In this document: positions 54,556 to 62,309 of the stretch, piece after piece
Layout of the letters: each line of letters begins with the position of its first letter
Position numbering within the stretch: position 1 is the first letter of the stretch
DNA from: Bacteroidota bacterium
GTDB taxonomy: Bacteria; Bacteroidota; Bacteroidia; UKL13-3
Direction of reading: 5' to 3'
NCBI GenBank assembly: GCA_027488905.1
Contig: JAIYAT010000035.1
Location: forward strand, 1-64,000
DNA: 64,000 nucleotides
Translations under genes and position numbers: made by a program
Notes under the pieces: generated by a model
Seen by the model: the letters and a program-made list of their open reading frames with translations, nothing else
What the model was told of the DNA's origin: nothing
Database searches by the model: none

Positions 54556-55176
54556 TTGGAAGTAATTCTTTCTGATATTGGAAAGCGTTTTAATTCGCAG
54601 TGGATATTTAAAGGAATCACGCACACTTTCATGCCTAATAGCACAACTGCGTTAATAGGTAATAACGGTAGCGGTAAATCAACTTTGCTTCAAATTATTT
54701 ATGGTTTTCAAACCTATAGCCGAGGTAATATCTCTTGGGAAATCAACCATGAAATGCTGAATGACGAATCGCTCCCCGGCAAAATTTCACTTGCAGCCCC
54801 TTATTTAGAATTGCCTGAAGAGTTTACTTTAGAAGAGATGCTTAGATTTCACTTTAGCATCGTTCCTGCTAAGACAGCTTATTCAAAAGAAGAAATGCTA
54901 AAATCCGCTGGATTAGCAGGGCAAGAGCGAAAATTCATAAAACATTTTTCTTCAGGAATGAAACAAAGGTTAAAGCTATTATTAGCATTTTACAGCAATA
55001 CTCCTTTGTTATTGCTCGACGAACCTTGCTCTAACTTAGATGAAAATGGTATAAATTGGTATAGAAACATACTTGAAGCAAATATTGGCCAACGAACCAT
55101 TATCATTGCAAGTAATCAAACGATTGAATACCAGGGCTGTCAAACCATCATAAATGTATCTCAATTTAGGCCTTAA
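54556..55176 (+). CDS. ABC transporter ATPase subunit (TTG start)
   Basis: 206 residues. Walker A GNNGSGKST is at 35-43, the signature is FSSGMKQRLKL and Walker B is PLLLLDEPCSNLD. The start appears to be TTG, three bases after lpxA; the next ATG would delete the first two strands. No permease gene is adjacent. The size and position fit a CcmA-like haem-exporter ATPase, and ccmC-F genes lie 14 kb upstream, but an LPS-related role cannot be excluded. It converges with lpxB (stops overlap by 11 bases). Confidence 0.85.
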   Translation: MEVILSDIGKRFNSQWIFKGITHTFMPNSTTALIGNNGSGKSTLLQIIYGFQTYSRGNISWEINHEMLNDESLPGKISLAAPYLELPEEFTLEEMLRFHFSIVPAKTAYSKEEMLKSAGLAGQERKFIKHFSSGMKQRLKLLLAFYSNTPLLLLDEPCSNLDENGINWYRNILEANIGQRTIIIASNQTIEYQGCQTIINVSQFRP

Positions 55177-56275
55177 TCAGTTTTTGAATTTCCTGAGCAC
55201 CTTTTAAACCTGCATTTTCATCTCCAAAAAGTGCGCTTAATTCGGCATAATCACTACGCATTTTTTCTAGTTTAGAACCTCCAGGCAAAATTTGTATCAA
55301 CTCTTCAAGCAAATGCGCCTTGGTATAATCTTTTTGAACCAACTCATTTATTGCCAATCTATCCAAGTTTAGGTTTACCAATGAAACATATTTAACTTTA
55401 ACAACCCTAATGGCAATATTATAAGAAATAGGATGCGCTGCATAGCCACAAACTTGCGGTACACCCATAATCGCGGTTTCTAAGGAGGCTGTACCACTGC
55501 AAACTACTGCTGCGGTTGCATGTTTAAGAATTTGAGCTGTTTCTCCAAACACAATGTTTACGGTTGGGTTTAGCCATTCTTCATAAAATGATTTTTCTAA
55601 ACCTGGTGCACCTGCAATCAAAAATTGATATTCTGGTAAGTCATTGGCCAAACTTAACATAGGTGGCAACATTCTTTTTACTTCTTGCTTTCTGCTTCCA
55701 GGCAACAAAGCTATGATTGGCTTGTGTTTATCTGCCCCAATTTCTTCTAAAAATCCAGGACGAGGAAAAGTTTGTTTGGCTTGTTGAACCAATGGATTTC
55801 CTACATAAACCGAGTTTACTTTCCATTTCTTGAAATAGTTTGGTTCGAACGGAAAAATGAGCAAAAGTAAGTCTACATATTTTTCAATTTTATAACCTCT
55901 TTTTTCATTCCATGCCCAGATTTTAGGGGCAATATAGTAACATGTTTTTATGCCATTTTCTTTGCCAAACTTAGCCATTCTAAGGTTAAAACCAGGGTAA
56001 TCAACAAGTATAAGTACATCTGGATTAAATGCTAAAACATGAGATTGGCACCGTTTTAAATTTCCAAAAACTTCTCTAATTCGCATCAATACTTCCACAA
56101 AACCCATGATGGTGATGTCTTTGTAATGTTGCAATAAACCTGGTGCAATTTTTTGCATGGCATCGCCACCCCAATATTGAAATTCTGCTTTGGGGTCTTC
56201 AACCAAAATTCCTTGCATTAAACTTGCTGCCAAGGCATCTCCACTGGCTTCTCCAGCTATTAAAAAATATTTCAT
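55166..56275 (-). CDS. lpxB: Lipid-A-disaccharide synthase
   Basis: 369-residue GT-B glycosyltransferase joining UDP-diacylglucosamine and lipid X. The N-terminal motif is AGEASGDALAASLMQG, followed by GFVEVLMRI, DYPGFNLRMAK, YYIAPKIWAWNEKR and LLPGSRKQEVKRMLP, and the CSGTASLETAIMGVPQV acceptor region. Its ATG overlaps the stop of the upstream ATP-grasp-like gene (56272-56275), so it is translated as the last gene of the amidoligase transcript and not with lpxD-lpxC-lpxA. Confidence 0.97.
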   Translation of the reverse strand: MKYFLIAGEASGDALAASLMQGILVEDPKAEFQYWGGDAMQKIAPGLLQHYKDITIMGFVEVLMRIREVFGNLKRCQSHVLAFNPDVLILVDYPGFNLRMAKFGKENGIKTCYYIAPKIWAWNEKRGYKIEKYVDLLLLIFPFEPNYFKKWKVNSVYVGNPLVQQAKQTFPRPGFLEEIGADKHKPIIALLPGSRKQEVKRMLPPMLSLANDLPEYQFLIAGAPGLEKSFYEEWLNPTVNIVFGETAQILKHATAAVVCSGTASLETAIMGVPQVCGYAAHPISYNIAIRVVKVKYVSLVNLNLDRLAINELVQKDYTKAHLLEELIQILPGGSKLEKMRSDYAELSALFGDENAGLKGAQEIQKLIKA

Positions 56276-57462
56276 TGTTCAAAAAATGAGACTGTACTTC
56301 CTACCCAATTCAAGTCTTTGTTAAAATTAACACCAATCATTTTTCCCCTACTTAAACGTGTTAACGAAATGGCTAATGTTGGTTTTTCGTCTTCATCTGG
56401 CCAAAGATACATCATCCTAACTTCACATTTTACCCCGCCTTCAGGTGTGTCTATGGCTTCAGTATAAGTTACTTTTTTCTGAAGTATCCAGTTTTCTGGG
56501 TCTTTGATAGATTTGATATCACTTTCGTTTACGTCTATAATTACTCCTGAACCTGCAAAGCTGAAAAGTGGTTTTAAAACATAGTTTTCTAGGTTTTCTG
56601 GAATTTCCTTCACCTTGTTTAAAAACTTAGTTTCTGGTACAAAGGCATGTTTTAAAAATGGCATGCTGTATTTACTAATTTGGTAAAACCAATTAGGATG
56701 CGATACCCATTCCACCTCTAAGTCGTCAAACAAATTTACCTTGTAAGTAAAATGGGTGTTGTTTTGTAAGTCGTCAAAAATTACACGGTTATAAATTCGT
56801 TTTACTTCAATAGTTTTTCCGTTTTTGTGGTAAAACAGTTTTTTTTCGGTTTGAACCAATTCGCTTAAGCACACTACTTCGATGCCCAAAAGTGCTTGAG
56901 TAAGGTAAAAATCTACTCGCGTTTTTTGTTTATGTGGTTCTATTTCTAACAGGATAACTTCAGATGGATTATGTTCTCCTAAAATAGTTCTACGCAATAA
57001 TTCTATATAAAAGGTTTGGTTAAAACCGCCCAATAAATGTGTGTATTGTGAAGTAATGGAGAATTCTTTTTGATAAGCATTGCCTAAATAATTCATCCAA
57101 CCATACAAGCTGGCAAAGCCTTGCAGTTCTATGAGCTGTGGCTCTAACTCATTGTTTGAGTCTCTGCAAATTGCAAAATCTATACATATAAAATTGCTAT
57201 GAGAGGAGAGGTTTTTTACATTCAAATCTTCTGGTACCGCTTTTTTACTAGCCTCTAAGAACTCAGCAGATTGAAGTGTGCTAATTATTTCTTGACAAGC
57301 GCTTTCTAGTTTTAGTTGTAGTTGTTTTGGAATAAATACTGGACTTTCTGCTACTCTAAAATCTATGGAATGCTGGCAATCTTCTTGCAAGATTTGCAAA
57401 AACTTTTCATACTGCTTTCTATCAAAATTAGCATTGATTTTATTCCTAAGTGCTGCTATCAT
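56272..57462 (-). CDS. ATP-grasp-like protein of unknown specificity
   Basis: 396 residues. The N-terminal half contains FICIDFAICRDSNNELEPQLIELQGFASLYG. The C-terminal half has the ATP-grasp nucleotide-binding pattern NYVLKPLFSFAGSGVIIDV, WILQKKV, a KCEVRMMYL metal-side strand and a closing RGKMIGVNFN loop. This suggests an ATP-dependent carboxylate-amine ligase or a degenerate relative. It overlaps the amidotransferase gene upstream and lpxB downstream by four bases each. Function is inferred only from fold and context. Confidence 0.7.
   Translation of the reverse strand: MIAALRNKINANFDRKQYEKFLQILQEDCQHSIDFRVAESPVFIPKQLQLKLESACQEIISTLQSAEFLEASKKAVPEDLNVKNLSSHSNFICIDFAICRDSNNELEPQLIELQGFASLYGWMNYLGNAYQKEFSITSQYTHLLGGFNQTFYIELLRRTILGEHNPSEVILLEIEPHKQKTRVDFYLTQALLGIEVVCLSELVQTEKKLFYHKNGKTIEVKRIYNRVIFDDLQNNTHFTYKVNLFDDLEVEWVSHPNWFYQISKYSMPFLKHAFVPETKFLNKVKEIPENLENYVLKPLFSFAGSGVIIDVNESDIKSIKDPENWILQKKVTYTEAIDTPEGGVKCEVRMMYLWPDEDEKPTLAISLTRLSRGKMIGVNFNKDLNWVGSTVSFFEQ
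56843..56859 (+). repeat. GGTTTGAACC motif copy 15
   Basis: Full extended form TTTCGGTTTGAACCAA (core 56848-56857), in the ATP-grasp-like gene, read on the minus strand as Leu-Val-Gln-Thr-Glu. Confidence 0.9.
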
Positions 57463-58280
57463 ATCTTACTCACCATAGGTTGATTGATTTTTTCATGGGC
57501 ATTCCTTAGGAAAACTGGTAACATCAATTGCTGTGTCAATGCTATTTTTTTAGGGTCTTCCAAACTTTCAACCATATCATTATATTTCTTTAGACCATAG
57601 TTTTGTATGACTAACTCTTTTTTCTCCTTTTCTCCTAAATAATGCAACATTCCTTTGGCATCAGCCTCAGGATGAAATTGTGTGCCAAAAATCTCTGGGG
57701 TAAATTCAATAGCCATGGTTGCCCTTTCAAAACTTACTTGTGGCCTATGTTTTTCAATGGCTAAAATTTTAGCACCCATATCTTCAAGTGCTTTAAGGTT
57801 GGGTTGAATCACTTGCCATTTTCTTGAATCAACTGCAAAAAATGGGTCGGGTAGGGTAGCTATGATAGCATTGTGCTTTCCTTGCTTTGTAGGATGCATT
57901 GGGAATATACCAAATGATTCACTTTGCCTTTTGTTAACTTCTGCTAAATTAAAATGAAAGCACATCAGTTGAAAGCTATGGCAAATCAAAAACAGCCACT
58001 TTTTATTTGGTTCAACCCTATTATACTGTATAATTTCTTCAACCAAACTTTTCCATGAAGCTTCCCAACCTTCTGTATCTATTGGGCTTCCTGGTCCTCC
58101 GCTGCTTATGTATACATCAAAGGCTAAGTTAGGAATTTCATTTGCTCCTCTAACATCAAATACTTGTTTGTTTATTGATATATTATAAGTTTGGGCAAAT
58201 GTATCTACCAATTGATGAATGTTACGCATCCCTTGGTTGGGTTCCCCTTTGTACATGTCTAAGATGGCAACTGATAACAT
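57459..58280 (-). CDS. Class I glutamine-amidotransferase-like protein
   Basis: 273 residues. It has the GATase-1 triad: nucleophile C100 (FLICHSFQLM), H203 and E205 (GTQFHPEAD), plus the oxyanion glycines (SSGGPGSPID). It has no synthetase domain, so it may supply ammonia to, or hydrolyse gamma-glutamyl products of, the neighbouring ligases (compare PuuD-like hydrolases). It is three bases downstream of the GCS2 gene, and its stop overlaps the next start. Confidence 0.85.
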   Translation of the reverse strand: MLSVAILDMYKGEPNQGMRNIHQLVDTFAQTYNISINKQVFDVRGANEIPNLAFDVYISSGGPGSPIDTEGWEASWKSLVEEIIQYNRVEPNKKWLFLICHSFQLMCFHFNLAEVNKRQSESFGIFPMHPTKQGKHNAIIATLPDPFFAVDSRKWQVIQPNLKALEDMGAKILAIEKHRPQVSFERATMAIEFTPEIFGTQFHPEADAKGMLHYLGEKEKKELVIQNYGLKKYNDMVESLEDPKKIALTQQLMLPVFLRNAHEKINQPMVSKI

Positions 58281-58283
58281 AAT

Positions 58284-59390
58284 TTATATGCCTTGCAAGG
58301 TAGCATTGGTTATATAATCTACCAATTCTATCCAGTTTTTATTTTGGTAATAAACCTTAAGCTGTCTATCTGCACCAGTGCCTTGCTCCATCATTTTATG
58401 TACATAGTTGATATCTTCTCTTGAACCCAAATCATCCACTACATCATCTATAAAATCAAGTAATTCGAGTATGAGTGCTTTTGTTGGAACCTCGGCTTGC
58501 TTGCCAAAATCTATCAAAACGCCATCTAACCCATACCTCGAAGCACGCCATTTGTTCTCTGCAATGAGCGCACGTCTGTAATGAATGAACTCCAAATTTT
58601 GTTGCTTAAGCTTGCAAAGTTTAGCACATAGAGCCTGAAAAACAGCTGCAATAGCAAGGGTTTCGTCTAAGAGCATTGGAATATCACAAATTCTAAACTC
58701 CACAGTATCAAAAACAGGATGAACCCTTAAGTCCCACCAAATTTTCTTAGCATTATCTATGCAACCTGTCTTAACCAAAAGCTTTACATAATTGTCATAT
58801 TCTTCCCAACTTTCGAAGTAATCAGGAATTCCTGTTCTTGGGAATTTATCAAAAACCTTTGTTCTAAAACTTTTGAAGCCAGTATCTCTGCCTTCCCAGA
58901 AAGGGGAGTTTGCAGACAAAGCATATACATGAGGTAAAAAATAGCGCATGGAGTTAGCAATGTGAATGGCTAATTGTTTATTGGGCATTCCCACATGTAC
59001 ATGTAGTCCAAAGATTAAATTGGAACGTGCAGCTTCCTGCATTTCATTCACAATTTGATGGTACCTTGGATTATCAGTAATTAGCTGTGTGCTCCAATGA
59101 CTAAAGGGATGTGTGCCGCTTGCGCCAATGGTAAAACCCAAATCATTGGCTACGATGTGAATGGTTTTTCTGAGGTTACCTAAATCTTTTCTGGCTTCTG
59201 TGGTATTCGCACAAATTCCTGTTCCTGCCTCTACCACGGCCTGGTGCATTTCAGCCTTTACCTGGTCGCCAGTTAAAATTTTTTCGGCCGCTGTTACAAT
59301 TTTCTGGTCATGCGGTGCCAAAGCCCTAGTCTCTGGATTGATAACCATGTATTCTTCTTCAATTCCAAGGGTAAACTGTTTTGGATCCAT
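58284..59390 (-). CDS. GCS2-family carboxylate-amine ligase (YbdK-like)
   Basis: 368 residues. The family signature LGIEEEYMVINPETRAL (E11-E13) binds metal-ATP. HQAVVEAGTGICANT, GLHVHVGMPN and WWDLRVHPVFDTVEFRICD follow as in glutamate-cysteine-ligase-2/YbdK enzymes. These form an amide between a carboxylate, often glutamate, and an amine; YbdK itself has weak glutamate-cysteine ligase activity. It is four bases downstream of the RimK-like ATP-grasp gene. No gshB is recognisable, so glutathione synthesis is possible but not the only reading. Confidence 0.88.
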   Translation of the reverse strand: MDPKQFTLGIEEEYMVINPETRALAPHDQKIVTAAEKILTGDQVKAEMHQAVVEAGTGICANTTEARKDLGNLRKTIHIVANDLGFTIGASGTHPFSHWSTQLITDNPRYHQIVNEMQEAARSNLIFGLHVHVGMPNKQLAIHIANSMRYFLPHVYALSANSPFWEGRDTGFKSFRTKVFDKFPRTGIPDYFESWEEYDNYVKLLVKTGCIDNAKKIWWDLRVHPVFDTVEFRICDIPMLLDETLAIAAVFQALCAKLCKLKQQNLEFIHYRRALIAENKWRASRYGLDGVLIDFGKQAEVPTKALILELLDFIDDVVDDLGSREDINYVHKMMEQGTGADRQLKVYYQNKNWIELVDYITNATLQGI

Positions 59391-59394
59391 ATTT

Positions 59395-60393
59395 TTAGGC
59401 TTTGCTTGTTTTGGGTTTGGTAGATTTAGCAGCGGTTTTGACAGGAATAATACTTGGAACTGCAGATTGCATATAGGTTCCCCAAGTTAAGTTATTCTTG
59501 CCAGGCTTATGCGCTTTTGCTTTAGCAATGGCAAAATCAGCTGTTGTTTTAACCACCCATTCGAAATTTTCTTCTCCTACTGAGTTTTTATCTGAATCGG
59601 GTGCCGGATTACAAAAATCAATGGCATAAGGTATGCCGTCTCTTACTGCAAACTCTACAGTATTAAAATCATATCCTAAACCTTTGCAAAGTAACAGCGT
59701 GTAGTTTTCTATAAGTTTAAGCAACTTTTTATTGGTAGTAACATTGTCTACTTGGTATCTCAAATGAGGCTCGTGATGAGGTGCATAAGGCATTATTTTT
59801 ACATGTTTGCCTCCTACACAGTATACTCGAAAATAGTCTTCATATTTTATTTCCTCTTGCAGCAGCATCACCAATTGCCCCGTTTCTTGATGTTTTTCAT
59901 AAAAATCTTCAGGGCTTGTTACTTTGTAAACACTTTTCCATCCACCACCAGCATGTGGTTTCATATAAGCTGGAAAGCCAATTTCTGCAAACATAGTTTC
60001 CCAATCTAAAGGCATTATCATGTTTCTAAAGCTGTTTTCACTGGTGTCTGAAGGTCTTTCATTGCTTGGTAACAAATAAGTTTTGGGTACTGGTACACCT
60101 AATTGAAGGGCAAGACAGTTATTAAAAAACTTTTCATCTGCACTCCACCAAAATGGGTTGTTTACTACAGCTGTTCCTTGTAAAGCTGCGTTTTTAAGGT
60201 AGGCGCGGTAAAAGGGAACATCATGACTTATTCTATCAAAAATAACGGCGTAACCGCTGTCTTCTCCTTGAGATAGTTTGTCAATTTTGATAAATTCTGC
60301 ATGGATATCTTTTTCACCACGATTGTTAATTTCGTCTACAAATGCTTGCGGAAAGGAGTTTTCCATGCCAAATAAAATGCCGATTTTTTTCAT
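59395..60393 (-). CDS. ATP-grasp ligase (RimK / D-Ala-D-Ala ligase-like)
   Basis: 332 residues. The ATP-grasp core has FPAYMKPHAGGGWKSVYKV (nucleotide lysine and glycine loop), VMLLQEEIKYEDYFRVYCVGG, and the metal site TVEFAVRDGIPYAIDFCNPAPD. The Lys-rich C-terminal ~30 residues (SIIPVKTAAKSTKPKTSKA) are probably disordered. It is predicted to ligate an amino acid or peptide to a carboxylate through an acyl-phosphate. It is the second gene of the minus-strand cluster, 20 bp after the esterase gene. Confidence 0.85.
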   Translation of the reverse strand: MKKIGILFGMENSFPQAFVDEINNRGEKDIHAEFIKIDKLSQGEDSGYAVIFDRISHDVPFYRAYLKNAALQGTAVVNNPFWWSADEKFFNNCLALQLGVPVPKTYLLPSNERPSDTSENSFRNMIMPLDWETMFAEIGFPAYMKPHAGGGWKSVYKVTSPEDFYEKHQETGQLVMLLQEEIKYEDYFRVYCVGGKHVKIMPYAPHHEPHLRYQVDNVTTNKKLLKLIENYTLLLCKGLGYDFNTVEFAVRDGIPYAIDFCNPAPDSDKNSVGEENFEWVVKTTADFAIAKAKAHKPGKNNLTWGTYMQSAVPSIIPVKTAAKSTKPKTSKA

Positions 60394-60413
60394 AGTATGT
60401 TAGATTAATGTGT

Positions 60414-61118
60414 TTAACGTAATGATAAATAATGTGGAAACATTTCTCGCCAAACTGGCCAATCATGGCCACCAGCGCTTCTAATATCTAGCCAATGTTC
60501 AATCCCTTTGCTGGTAAGAATTTCGCTCAAATGAATACTTGCTTCTTTGCAAAAATCTCCTTCAGCGGTACCTAAGATAATTTTCATTTTCCATAAATCT
60601 GGGTGTTTGGCATTAGGTAAAAAATCAATTGGGTTATTGTAAAAGACATTATCGTCATAATATCCATCCACTCTTTTGCGTATGTCAAACGCTGCTCCCA
60701 TGGTAAATAAATGACTCACATCCTCTGGGTGTTTAAAAGCATAATTGGCTGCATGATACCCTCCAAAACTGCATCCTGCCAAGGCAATTTTTCCAAATCC
60801 CGAATCCTGCTTGATTTCTGGTACCAATTCTTGGTGCAGCATTTGGTCGAATAAGTTGTGGTTAAAAGCTCTAATCTCTGGACTTACATTTGAATTATAC
60901 CAACTTAGTTCGTCTATGCTATCTGGGCAATAAATTTTTATGAATCCATTGTTTATATACCATTGTGCAGATTCTATTAATTTAAAATCTCTATTTTCAT
61001 TGTGTTTACCCATTGAAGTTGGGAATACAACAACGGGTAATCCCGCATGGCCAAACACAAGTGCTTTTAGGTCTATATTTAGTGTTGGGGAATGCCACTT
61101 AAAGTAAGTTTCCTTCAT
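60414..61118 (-). CDS. Alpha/beta-hydrolase (esterase-family) of the amidoligase cluster
   Basis: 234 residues. The nucleophile elbow is GCSFGG with S117; D188 (TAEGD) and H218 (SAGGHDWPVWREMFPHYL) complete the triad. It belongs to the esterase-D/putative esterase group and has no signal peptide, so is cytoplasmic. It is the first gene of the minus-strand run to lpxB and divergent from a second esterase, 101 bp between starts. A peptide- or ester-releasing role in the cluster is inferred. Confidence 0.85.
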   Translation of the reverse strand: MKETYFKWHSPTLNIDLKALVFGHAGLPVVVFPTSMGKHNENRDFKLIESAQWYINNGFIKIYCPDSIDELSWYNSNVSPEIRAFNHNLFDQMLHQELVPEIKQDSGFGKIALAGCSFGGYHAANYAFKHPEDVSHLFTMGAAFDIRKRVDGYYDDNVFYNNPIDFLPNAKHPDLWKMKIILGTAEGDFCKEASIHLSEILTSKGIEHWLDIRSAGGHDWPVWREMFPHYLSLR

Positions 61119-61205
61119 AAGCTAATCAATTGTAGTTCAATTTATAATTTTAAATTTGAATAACAAGTAAAGAACTTTCTTAAATAAATTAATTAACACA
61201 ATCCT

Positions 61206-61212
61206 TACCTTG
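61206..61212 (+). promoter_or_regulatory. -7-like promoter box of the second hydrolase
   Basis: TTACCTTGCG just before the ATG at 61220 resembles TAnnTTTG (TACCTTG). Its position implies a leaderless or nearly leaderless message. Confidence 0.4.
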
Positions 61213-61219
61213 CGAGGGT

Positions 61220-62008
61220 ATGTTAAGCCCTACCATTTTTACATTTGATTTATTTTCTAAAAACCTAGAAGCTACTTTTTCCATTCATGTTTATTTGCCA
61301 CCAAATTTTAACATAAACCATGTTTATCCTTTGTTACTTTTGAATGATGGACAAGACTTAGAGGCAATGGATATGAAAACCATTTTAACCGATGTGTTTC
61401 GCCATCAAATTTGTAAACCCTTTGTATTGGCTGGCATTGAGGCAATAGACCGTTTGCAAACCTATGGTGTGGCAGGTATGCCTGATTTTAAAGGACGAGG
61501 GGGCAAAGCAATTGAATATACAAACTTTGTTGTTAATGAAGCTTTACCTGCAATTTTAAAAGTTAGTGGTTTGACCCAATTCTCTGAAAAGGCAGTAGGA
61601 GGATTTAGCTTAGGTGGCCTTTCTGCTTTTGATTTGGCTTGGGTTCAGCCTGAAACCTTTTCTAAAGTAATGGTTTGCAGCGGAGCATTTTGGTGGAGAA
61701 GCAAAGATTTAAAAGAAGGCTATACAGATGCGGATAGAATCATGCATCAAAAGGTATTGAATACCTTAGAAAAGCCTGATCTAAAAATATGGTTGCAAAG
61801 TGGAACTTTAGATGAGAAAGAAGACAGAAATCACAATGGAATAATTGATAGTATTGAGGATATGCGCGACTTGGTTCAAGCCTTAAAACAAAAAGGTTTC
61901 AAAGAAAATGAAGACTTATTTTTTAAAGAAATGATTGGTGGTAAACACAGCCTAGAAACCTATGGTATTGTGTTTCCCTACTTTGTGCATTGGGCTTTTG
62001 GTGAATAG
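61220..62008 (+). CDS. Esterase-D-type alpha/beta-hydrolase
   Basis: 262 residues, no signal peptide. The nucleophile elbow is GGFSLGG with S130, and the catalytic histidine is in GGKHSLETYG near 248. The LPPNFNINHVYPLLLLNDGQD opening is that of the putative-esterase (enterobactin esterase/EsD-like) family. It is divergent from the other hydrolase, so probably shares control with the amidoligase cluster. Substrate unknown. Confidence 0.85.
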   Translation: MLSPTIFTFDLFSKNLEATFSIHVYLPPNFNINHVYPLLLLNDGQDLEAMDMKTILTDVFRHQICKPFVLAGIEAIDRLQTYGVAGMPDFKGRGGKAIEYTNFVVNEALPAILKVSGLTQFSEKAVGGFSLGGLSAFDLAWVQPETFSKVMVCSGAFWWRSKDLKEGYTDADRIMHQKVLNTLEKPDLKIWLQSGTLDEKEDRNHNGIIDSIEDMRDLVQALKQKGFKENEDLFFKEMIGGKHSLETYGIVFPYFVHWAFGE

Positions 62009-62018
62009 CATTCGGTAA

Positions 62019-62309
62019 TTATTTTATCCATTTTTTAGGATTGGTTGAGGTGTGTAAAATCGCAATTATCAAAATTTGATTTTCTTTAACTATGTAATGT
62101 ATTCCAAAAGGGAATTTACTCAGAAATGCTACTCTAATTTGCTTATATCTTATTTGAATTAAGTTAGGATTTGATTGTATTAAATCTAAAACACTTATTA
62201 GGTTTTGTTCAAATTTATTTCCGAGACCTTCATTTTGACTTTCATACCATAAAAAAGTCTCACGGATTTCAAATTCAGCCTTATTTGAAATAAATAACTC
62301 AAAAATCAT
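62019..62309 (-). CDS. ParE/RelE-family toxin
   Basis: 96 residues. The ParE/RelE fold pattern is clear: an N-terminal strand (FELFISNKAEFEIRETFLWY), two helices (GLGNKFEQNLISVLDLIQSNPNL), then strands VAFLSKFPFGIHYIVKENQILIIAILHTSTNPKKW. Such toxins attack gyrase or ribosome-bound mRNA; the subtype is undecided. Its ATG overlaps the antitoxin stop (62306-62309), giving coupled translation. Confidence 0.85.
   Translation of the reverse strand: MIFELFISNKAEFEIRETFLWYESQNEGLGNKFEQNLISVLDLIQSNPNLIQIRYKQIRVAFLSKFPFGIHYIVKENQILIIAILHTSTNPKKWIK

Follow-up and report, generated by a model that had tools for sequence, protein, structure and literature searches.

In E. coli Gss, a ligase and an amide hydrolase are paired within one fused protein, and YgiC and YjfC, which share its ligase fold, are annotated as peptide-spermidine ligases (Pederick et al. 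2023, as cited in the available text of PMC12568646). Glutathione biosynthesis combines a GCS2-family ligase with a ligase of the glutathione-synthetase fold. For the GCS2 relative YbdK, gamma-glutamyl:cysteine ligase activity has been reported (Lehmann et al. 2004, by its title as cited in PMC2588565). Stand-alone ATP-grasp ligases also form amide bonds stepwise in the dapdiamide and E-64 pathways, within biosynthetic clusters that have other partners. The carboxylate-amine ligase neighbourhoods described by Iyer, Burroughs and Aravind (2008, PMC2588565) involve another ligase family, in proteobacteria and firmicutes, and the available portions of that paper mention neither second or third ligases nor esterases, unlike the cassette presented here.

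The window, a stretch of 64,000 nucleotides from a Bacteroidota bacterium (contig JAIYAT010000035.1 of assembly GCA_027488905.1), contains a six-gene cassette that adds a GCS2 protein and a RimK/Ddl-like ligase to a Gss-like ligase, and in which the hydrolase partner, a fused amidase in Gss, is encoded as its own protein: class I amidotransferase-like here, M29-like or Amidohydro_3 in other loci (Table 1). A previous reading based on the sequence alone (hereafter the sequence-only reading) had described five minus-strand genes with overlaps or gaps of 20 bp or less plus a divergent hydrolase gene, and the open reading frames were found where it had placed them. The five-gene run from EST1 to AG2 spans 56272-61118 on the minus strand; downstream from EST1, gaps of 20, 4 and 3 bp are followed by a 4-bp overlap between GAT and AG2. 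An lpxB gene at 55166-56275, missing from that reading, overlaps AG2 by 4 bp. Despite this overlap it was rejected as a cassette member, with no lpxB match in 91 AG2 stretches (tblastn).

Table 1. Genes of the cassette, with positions in the window.
Gene	Position	Strand	Assignment
EST1	60414-61118	-	alpha/beta hydrolase, PF00756/Abhydrolase kind
AG1	59395-60393	-	ATP-grasp ligase, RimK/LysX/Ddl fold
GCS2	58284-59390	-	YbdK-type carboxylate-amine ligase (PRK13515)
GAT	57459-58280	-	class I amidotransferase-like hydrolase, C100/H203/E205
AG2	56272-57462	-	ligase, glutathionylspermidine synthetase / YgiC / eukaryotic glutathione synthetase fold
EST2	61220-62008	+	PF00756 esterase, divergent from the five-gene run

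New here are the fold assignment of AG2, the swapping of hydrolases and a fusion of EST2 to a DinB domain, as are the presence of a bacillithiol gene in the genome and the absence of GshB matches from it. At the level of search listings, the literature on the cluster and its components showed no description of the six-gene set; the 2009 survey by Iyer et al., the likeliest earlier source, lay outside that scope. That survey (Mol BioSyst 5:1636) reportedly covers bacterial neighbourhoods with COG2170 ligases, ATP-grasps, class I amidotransferases and alpha/beta hydrolases; the cassette may be among them.

We compared 80 named loci, which are the best 80 of at least 580 and are biased toward close kin of the window's AG1. 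The order EST1-AG1-GCS2-GAT-AG2 is kept in 67 of these 80 (best 80 of at least 580), and because it recurs in this way, the five-gene arrangement is far beyond chance. No further ORF is common in the neighbourhood: none of at least 80 aa occurs in more than 11 of the 80 loci (best 80 of at least 580; flanks of up to 9 kb), and the commonest extra neighbours there, in 11 and 10 loci, come each mainly from one family.

Among 296 sampled Bacteroidota genomes, AG1 was found in 108, with four weak matches (35-43% identical) that may be paralogues. AG2 occurs in 92 genomes, of which 89 have AG1, 87 have GCS2 and 84 have both; the GCS2 matches in AG2-less genomes, 16 in all, are just 33-47% identical to the window's GCS2. 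Independent scattering of the genes in relatives, against which the sequence-only reading had set its proposal, is thus not what is seen, given the kept order and the presence of AG1 in nearly all AG2 genomes. AG1 adjoins AG2 in 47 of 91 fetched AG2 stretches, some of which end at contig ends. The idea of AG2 as a stand-alone orphan was rejected: AG1 is absent from roughly half of the AG2 stretches, yet nearly all of those genomes have AG1 and GCS2 elsewhere. AG2 together with AG1 is present in 26 of 51 sampled families (Fisher p 1e-6, from a coarse table in which family f16 is counted on a weak AG1 match). Fisher tests on genome counts ignore kinship; a count that lies inside a single family, f5, gives both genes in 6 genomes, AG2 alone in 1, AG1 alone in 0 and neither in at least 22.

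The genes are unlinked in several families, as would be expected if AG1, GAT and the esterases formed one unit and GCS2 and AG2 another, loosely related and joined by neighbourhood. Moreover, 15 of the 296 genomes have AG1 and GAT without AG2, and in every one of the 9 loci fetched from such genomes AG1 is followed by a different ATP-grasp-like protein (c1); an hhalign comparison of c1 with AG2 gave a probability of 4.9%, on which we base no claim. GCS2 is missing in 5 of the 92 AG2 genomes, 4 of them from one family (f6). Since GCS2-less AG2 genomes and AG2-less AG1/GAT genomes both exist, neither GCS2 nor AG2 is always required. A division into two units is nevertheless quite unlikely in our judgement, given that AG1, GCS2 and AG2 are all found in 84 of the 92 AG2 genomes, even when unlinked.

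Inheritance of the cassette within Bacteroidota is mostly vertical. On a tree of 54 of 59 labelled loci, with labels from record titles, the family labels change 5 times, the minimum possible being 4. Five loci whose GCS2 ORF was not extracted were left out (L141, L149, L171, L193 and L197); L197, which comes from a Flavobacteriaceae record and shows Pedobacter-like identities for its cassette, might have added one label change. This pattern, together with a nearly constant single copy per genome, the presence of AG1 and AG2 in about half of the sampled families, and the lack of a shared transporter, other export gene or regulator among ORFs of at least 80 aa in the 80 named loci (best 80 of at least 580; flanks of up to 9 kb), argues against a secreted secondary metabolite, such as a dapdiamide- or E-64-like pseudopeptide. 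Such compounds are indeed made by ATP-grasp amide ligases, and Cp1B of E-64 synthesis has the fold of AG2 (9cjn, Z 22.5; available text of PMC12568646), but a product of this kind seems decidedly improbable.

AG2 has no Pfam match at E ≤ 0.1. Its AF2 model (pLDDT 91.7) aligns over the full length with GspS-, YgiC-, trypanothione-synthetase- and eukaryotic-GSS-type chains and with Cp1B at Z 20-26, the next row being at 12.8, which places the "second ATP-grasp-like protein" of the sequence-only reading in the glutathionylspermidine/eukaryotic glutathione synthetase fold. The values are Z 26.3 for 7uk8 (rmsd 3.4, 340 residues aligned) and 24.5 for 2io8 (rmsd 3.9, 344 aligned), with eukaryotic glutathione synthetases within 1 to 3 of these. 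Against Gss, YgiC and YjfC, for which Z is 23-26, identity in the structural alignment is 12-15%. AG2 residues D95, E112, K264 and K297 align with Gss D318, E330, K498 and K533, which we take to be metal/ATP residues, and are present in 160 of 160 copies. Two other Gss residues are not kept: position 93, equivalent to R316, is never Arg among the 160 copies, and N332 is replaced by Gln (Q114) in all of them. PF03738 matches 6 of 69 AG2s at E ≤ 0.01 (best 9.6e-6), the window's AG2 not among them, and has no match in the window's genome; when the AG2 profile was compared with that of YgiC/YjfC/Gss, just 54 columns aligned, with a probability of 46%. As a likeness between a model and known folds, this assignment reveals no substrate.

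The other two ligases are likewise of amide-forming families. GCS2 matches PF04107 at 2.8e-64 and NCBIfam PRK13515 at 525.9 bits, above the cut-off of 371, and its solved relatives are 1tt4 (E 2.9e-54) and 1r8g (YbdK; E 1.4e-53). For AG1, the best named family is rimK_fam TIGR00768 (7.3e-7; 28.8 bits, under the NCBIfam cut-off of 143.4). Its AF2 model (pLDDT 85) resembles Ddl/LysX/RimK structures at Z 12-14 over residues 81-300, including 5zct (Z 12.2, the fold common to the RimK family), and K145, E247, D259 and N262 are present in 126 of 126 copies. Because three ligases of amide-forming families travel together with invariant residues suited to ATP and metal binding, the part of the sequence-only reading that foresaw a ribosome-independent amide or peptide pathway gains support. 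Its suggestion of carrier modification does not: the five genes in the window are too tightly packed for a carrier gene to fit between them, and no further ORF of at least 80 aa recurs in more than 11 of the 80 named loci (best 80 of at least 580). A RimK-like AG1 might add residues to a protein end, with GAT and the esterases removing them, in keeping with its best named family and with the Lys/Ala-rich C-terminal tails of many AG1s (at least 40 residues past G305 in 53 of 126). To our knowledge, YbdK/GCS2 and GspS-fold enzymes use small-molecule substrates in known cases, and we consider protein or carrier modification very unlikely.

GAT matches PF00117 at 1.3e-7 (31.9 bits, cut-off 22.8), and a sequence search against solved structures gave nothing at 1e-3. 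The intact Cys-His-Glu triad noted in the sequence-only reading is conserved in 113 of 113 aligned copies. Class I glutamine amidotransferases usually have the elbow G-x-C-x-G-x-Q, from which GAT departs: the window has I-C-H-S-F-Q, and Ser stands at Cys+2 in 113 of 113. In 5 loci an M29-like peptidase lies between GCS2 and AG2, and in 11 an Amidohydro_3 protein lies directly upstream of AG2; all 16 loci belong to genomes without a GAT match. No substitute hydrolase was identified in 21 of 37 GAT-less AG2 genomes, and two loci (L045 and L049) have an Amidohydro_3 relative together with GAT. Because a peptidase or an amidohydrolase takes its place in some genomes, GAT is more likely a peptide or amide hydrolase than an ammonia donor.

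EST1 matches Abhydrolase_1 (1.5e-7) and Esterase PF00756 (23.9 bits, cut-off 22), with nothing at 1e-3 in a sequence search against solved structures. The serine of its G-x-S-x-G motif, S117, is kept in 103 of 107 copies, and EST1 lies upstream of AG1 in 74 of the 80 loci (best 80 of at least 580). EST2 matches PF00756 at 1.4e-22 and occupies the divergent position in 53 of the 80 (best 80 of at least 580); raw matches include weak off-site ones, 5 of 58 in the same 80 named loci (excluded from the 53) and 3 of 16 in AG2 stretches. Hymenobacter EST2 carries a fused DinB domain, an arrangement confined to one small group; the EST2-DinB_2 protein has a further match to the Mycothiol-S-transferase family, and the fusion points to thiols.

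This fusion would fit a plain glutathione-type thiol, for which GCS2 would make gamma-Glu-Cys, one ATP-grasp ligase would add glycine or another residue, and the esterases and GAT would process S-conjugates. The activity reported for YbdK and the likeness of AG2 to eukaryotic glutathione synthetase are in line with it. On the other hand, the window's genome (completeness 99.9) has a BshC gene, of bacillithiol synthesis, and 0 matches to PF02955 (GSH-S_ATP), the GshB-type synthetase. The same facts bear on the modified glutathione-like thiol of the sequence-only reading, for which the fusion speaks and the BshC gene and missing GshB match do not. In the available text of a survey of complete genomes, which used other queries and identity limits, gshA-gshB is listed for Cyanobacteria, Proteobacteria, one actinobacterium and Eukarya, not for Bacteroidetes (PMC6282198). 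A glutathione-type route also leaves the third ligase unexplained, differs from the cassette in lacking the extra hydrolase and two esterases, and does not accommodate the absence of GCS2 from some hosts. We therefore regard it as rather unlikely.

The deoxyhypusine/homospermidine synthase family PF01916 is found in 86 of 92 AG2 genomes and in 147 of the 204 without AG2; of the 15 AG2-less genomes that have AG1 and GAT, 4 carry it. This link to AG2 is suggestive and confounded by kinship. A search of the window's genome for spermidine synthase (PF01564) found nothing, and the NspC score there, 41 bits, is far under the cut-off of 409.

Gene order, co-occurrence, folds, catalytic-type residues, hydrolase swapping and the finding of nothing widely recurrent beyond the six genes form the observed basis for a plausible, though slightly less than probable, mechanism: by analogy with glutathionylspermidine metabolism, the six genes may constitute a cycle that builds and breaks down a gamma-glutamyl-type peptide or peptide-amine. 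First, GCS2 would form an amide between an amino compound and glutamate (or an analogue of it), using the gamma-carboxyl group. AG1 would then add a second residue via acyl-phosphate chemistry, and AG2 would close the carboxyl terminus with an amino acid or an amine, in the way known from eukaryotic glutathione synthetase, glutathionylspermidine synthetase or YgiC/YjfC. GAT would cut the product amide again, so that ligase and hydrolase form a reversible pair comparable to E. coli Gss with its synthetase half and amidase half, and EST1 and EST2 might act on ester or thioester forms. Both this order of reactions and an intracellular location of the product are presumed.

Because AG1 is found in over a third of the sampled genomes and the gene order is kept across families, the product is likely a small molecule in wide use within a major phylum, and the set offers genes to delete and reactions to test. 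In a more specific and unlikely version, many Bacteroidota would share a core metabolite, a gamma-glutamyl peptide reversibly joined to homospermidine or another amine by GCS2, AG1 and AG2 and split by interchangeable amide hydrolases; if so, the conjugate would parallel the glutathionylspermidine/trypanothione principle as a second and independent case, in users of bacillithiol rather than glutathione. Either glutathionylspermidine-like chemistry would extend to a bacillithiol-using phylum, or another conjugate altogether would emerge.

Open reading frames in the window confirmed the positions claimed by the sequence-only reading for five minus-strand genes and a divergent esterase, and the six proteins belong to the families claimed for them. 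From the hydrolase EST1 downstream, the five genes are separated by gaps of 20, 4 and 3 bp, followed by a 4-bp overlap between GAT and AG2. lpxB, on the same strand, overlaps AG2 by 4 bp and may be co-transcribed with it in the window; as a cassette member it was rejected (0 matches in 91 fetched AG2 stretches). A ParE-like toxin family protein (PF05016) adjoins EST2.

Cassette genes and flanking features in the window
Feature	Position	Strand	Protein
lpxB	55166-56275	-	
AG2	56272-57462	-	second ATP-grasp-like protein
GAT	57459-58280	-	class I amidotransferase-like protein
GCS2	58284-59390	-	YbdK-type ligase
AG1	59395-60393	-	RimK/Ddl-like ATP-grasp ligase
EST1	60414-61118	-	hydrolase
EST2	61220-62008	+	divergent esterase
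ParE-like	62019-62309	-	toxin family protein

The cassette is real and widespread. Among 80 named loci (the best 80 of 580 relatives, from named genomes scanned with an AG1 alignment), 67 have the order EST1-AG1-GCS2-GAT-AG2, 47 of the 80 with divergent EST2 in front; several of the 13 without the full order stop at a contig end. Clustering of reading frames of at least 80 aa in these 80 loci returned the six cassette genes and then fell sharply to 11 and 10 loci; thus, no transporter, regulator or carrier gene of that size is common to them. The commonest extra neighbor occurs in 11 of these 80 loci, ten of them Sphingobacteriaceae. A class III aminotransferase-like gene, identified by eye, lies downstream of AG2 in 10 (for example, L142), ~4.5 kb downstream of the AG1 start; seven of the 10 are Spirosomataceae.

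Of 296 Bacteroidota genomes searched, 92 (counting that of the window) encode AG2; repeated in the same way, the search found AG1 in 108, GAT in 70 and GCS2 in 103. AG1 is encoded in 89 of the 92 AG2 genomes, GCS2 in 87 and both in 84. In stretches of up to 17 kb from the 91 other AG2 genomes, some ending at contig ends, GCS2 lies near AG2 in 48, AG1 in 47, GAT in 40 and EST1 in 36. Because AG1 is nearby in only these 47, its co-occurrence with AG2 goes beyond linkage. All 26 families with AG2 also have AG1; 10 have AG1 only and 15 neither. Within one family (f5), six genomes have both, one AG2 only and none AG1 only, with neither in 22 among those listed. Identity to the window's GCS2 is 33-47% for each of the 16 matches in genomes lacking AG2, against 50% or more for full-length copies in AG2 genomes. 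On a quick tree from AG1, GCS2 and AG2 (the window plus 54 of 59 labeled loci, with family labels assigned in this analysis), labels change five times, against a minimum of four and a shuffle mean of 32, so inheritance is mostly vertical. Flavobacterium-type cassettes (L134, L137, L150, L162) cluster with Cyclobacteriaceae, which suggests transfer from Cyclobacteriaceae to Flavobacterium.

The window's AG2 had no Pfam match; GSP_synth matched 6 of 69 AG2 relatives, and an AG2 profile had a single match among PDB sequences, YgiC (E 0.016). Profile comparison by sequence alone was weak (probability 46%, 54 columns). The AlphaFold2 model (pLDDT 91.7) matched over its full length YgiC (7uk8, Z 26.3), YjfC (25.8) and the E. 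coli glutathionylspermidine synthetase/amidase Gss (2io8, 24.5), followed by eukaryotic glutathione synthetases (up to 24), trypanothione synthetase (23) and Cp1B of E-64 synthesis (22.5); below Z 20 the list falls to 12.8 and then 8.2. AG2 residues D95, E112, K264 and K297, kept in 160/160 AG2s, align with the Gss metal/ATP residues D318, E330, K498 and K533. The position of Gss R316 is never Arg in AG2, and that of N332 is always Gln.

For AG1, residues 81-300 of the model (pLDDT 85) matched Ddl, LysX and RimK (Z 12-14), a comparison that barely probes the first 80 residues. The AG1 C-terminus is a Lys/Ala-rich tail of highly variable length (for example, L149 and L141), at least 40 residues after G305 in 53 of 126 (median 24% Lys among those 53). 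An aromatic amino acid lyase directly follows AG1 in L216 (PF00221 profile) and L217 (same sequence cluster), both of family f25, and at L212:5952-7760 a 43%-identical AG1 relative precedes two genes that by eye are squalene/phytoene synthase-like. The solved relatives of GCS2 are YbdK proteins. GAT retains its catalytic triad in 113/113 aligned copies, with Ser two residues after the Cys, where Gly is usual.

The hydrolase beside AG2 varies. In five loci (L047, L054, L061, L087, L090), GAT's place between GCS2 and AG2 is taken by an M29-like peptidase (profile match on L047 and L087). In eleven others, the gene immediately upstream of AG2, in the same orientation, encodes an Amidohydro_3 protein (profile match on L107) and overlaps AG2 by 4 bp in six. 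All 16 genomes with either arrangement lack a GAT match at 1e-10. This swapping argues against GAT as an ammonia donor, and suggests to us that AG2 requires an amide hydrolase alongside it, reminiscent of the fused amidase of Gss. It is no clean rule, since no substitute was identified in 21 of 37 AG2 genomes without GAT, and L045 and L049 carry an Amidohydro_3 relative alongside GAT.

Fifteen of the 296 genomes lack AG2 yet carry AG1 and GAT. In all nine such loci fetched, another ATP-grasp-like protein, c1, directly follows AG1; on L203 it matched circularly permuted ATP-grasp PF14403 under the family cut-off (E 6e-6). GAT follows c1 in 8/8 loci whose stretch includes it, and a PF00756-like esterase (c5) follows GAT in four. 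The placement of c1 suggests that GCS2 and AG2 can be replaced by a different ligase as partner of AG1, GAT and the esterases.

As to the product, EST2 carries a fused DinB_2 domain at its C-terminus in 8/8 Hymenobacter loci reaching EST2 and in L053; that of L130, one of the eight, also matched Mycothiol-S-transferase. The DinB superfamily includes thiol S-transferases, and the fusion thus supports a thiol. DinB-type bacillithiol transferases are the subject of PMC5815605. The window's genome has a BshC (bacillithiol synthesis) gene and 0 matches to bacterial glutathione synthetase GshB, which disfavors ordinary glutathione. A polyamine is supported by YgiC and YjfC, annotated at NCBI and reported as peptide-spermidine ligases (Pederick et al. 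2023, as cited in PMC12568646), together with a deoxyhypusine synthase-family protein encoded in the window's genome; some homologs in that family act as homospermidine synthases, and glutathionylhomospermidine is proposed for hss-gss clusters of a phage and betaproteobacteria (PMC9992855). The family occurs in 86/92 AG2 genomes versus 147/204 others, and therefore does not settle the polyamine question.

No characterization of the cassette was found in the literature searched. The 2009 survey of Iyer and colleagues may already include this neighborhood, which lowers the cassette's novelty. These authors had tied a GCS2-sized ligase family to a thiol peptidase resembling amidotransferases, with glutathione or related peptides as the predicted products (PMC2588565). 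Overall, our verdict is that the cassette works like glutathione or glutathionylspermidine metabolism, without showing every feature by which membership of either is judged; tentatively, it may make and break a peptide or peptide-amine of gamma-glutamyl type in a reversible cycle.
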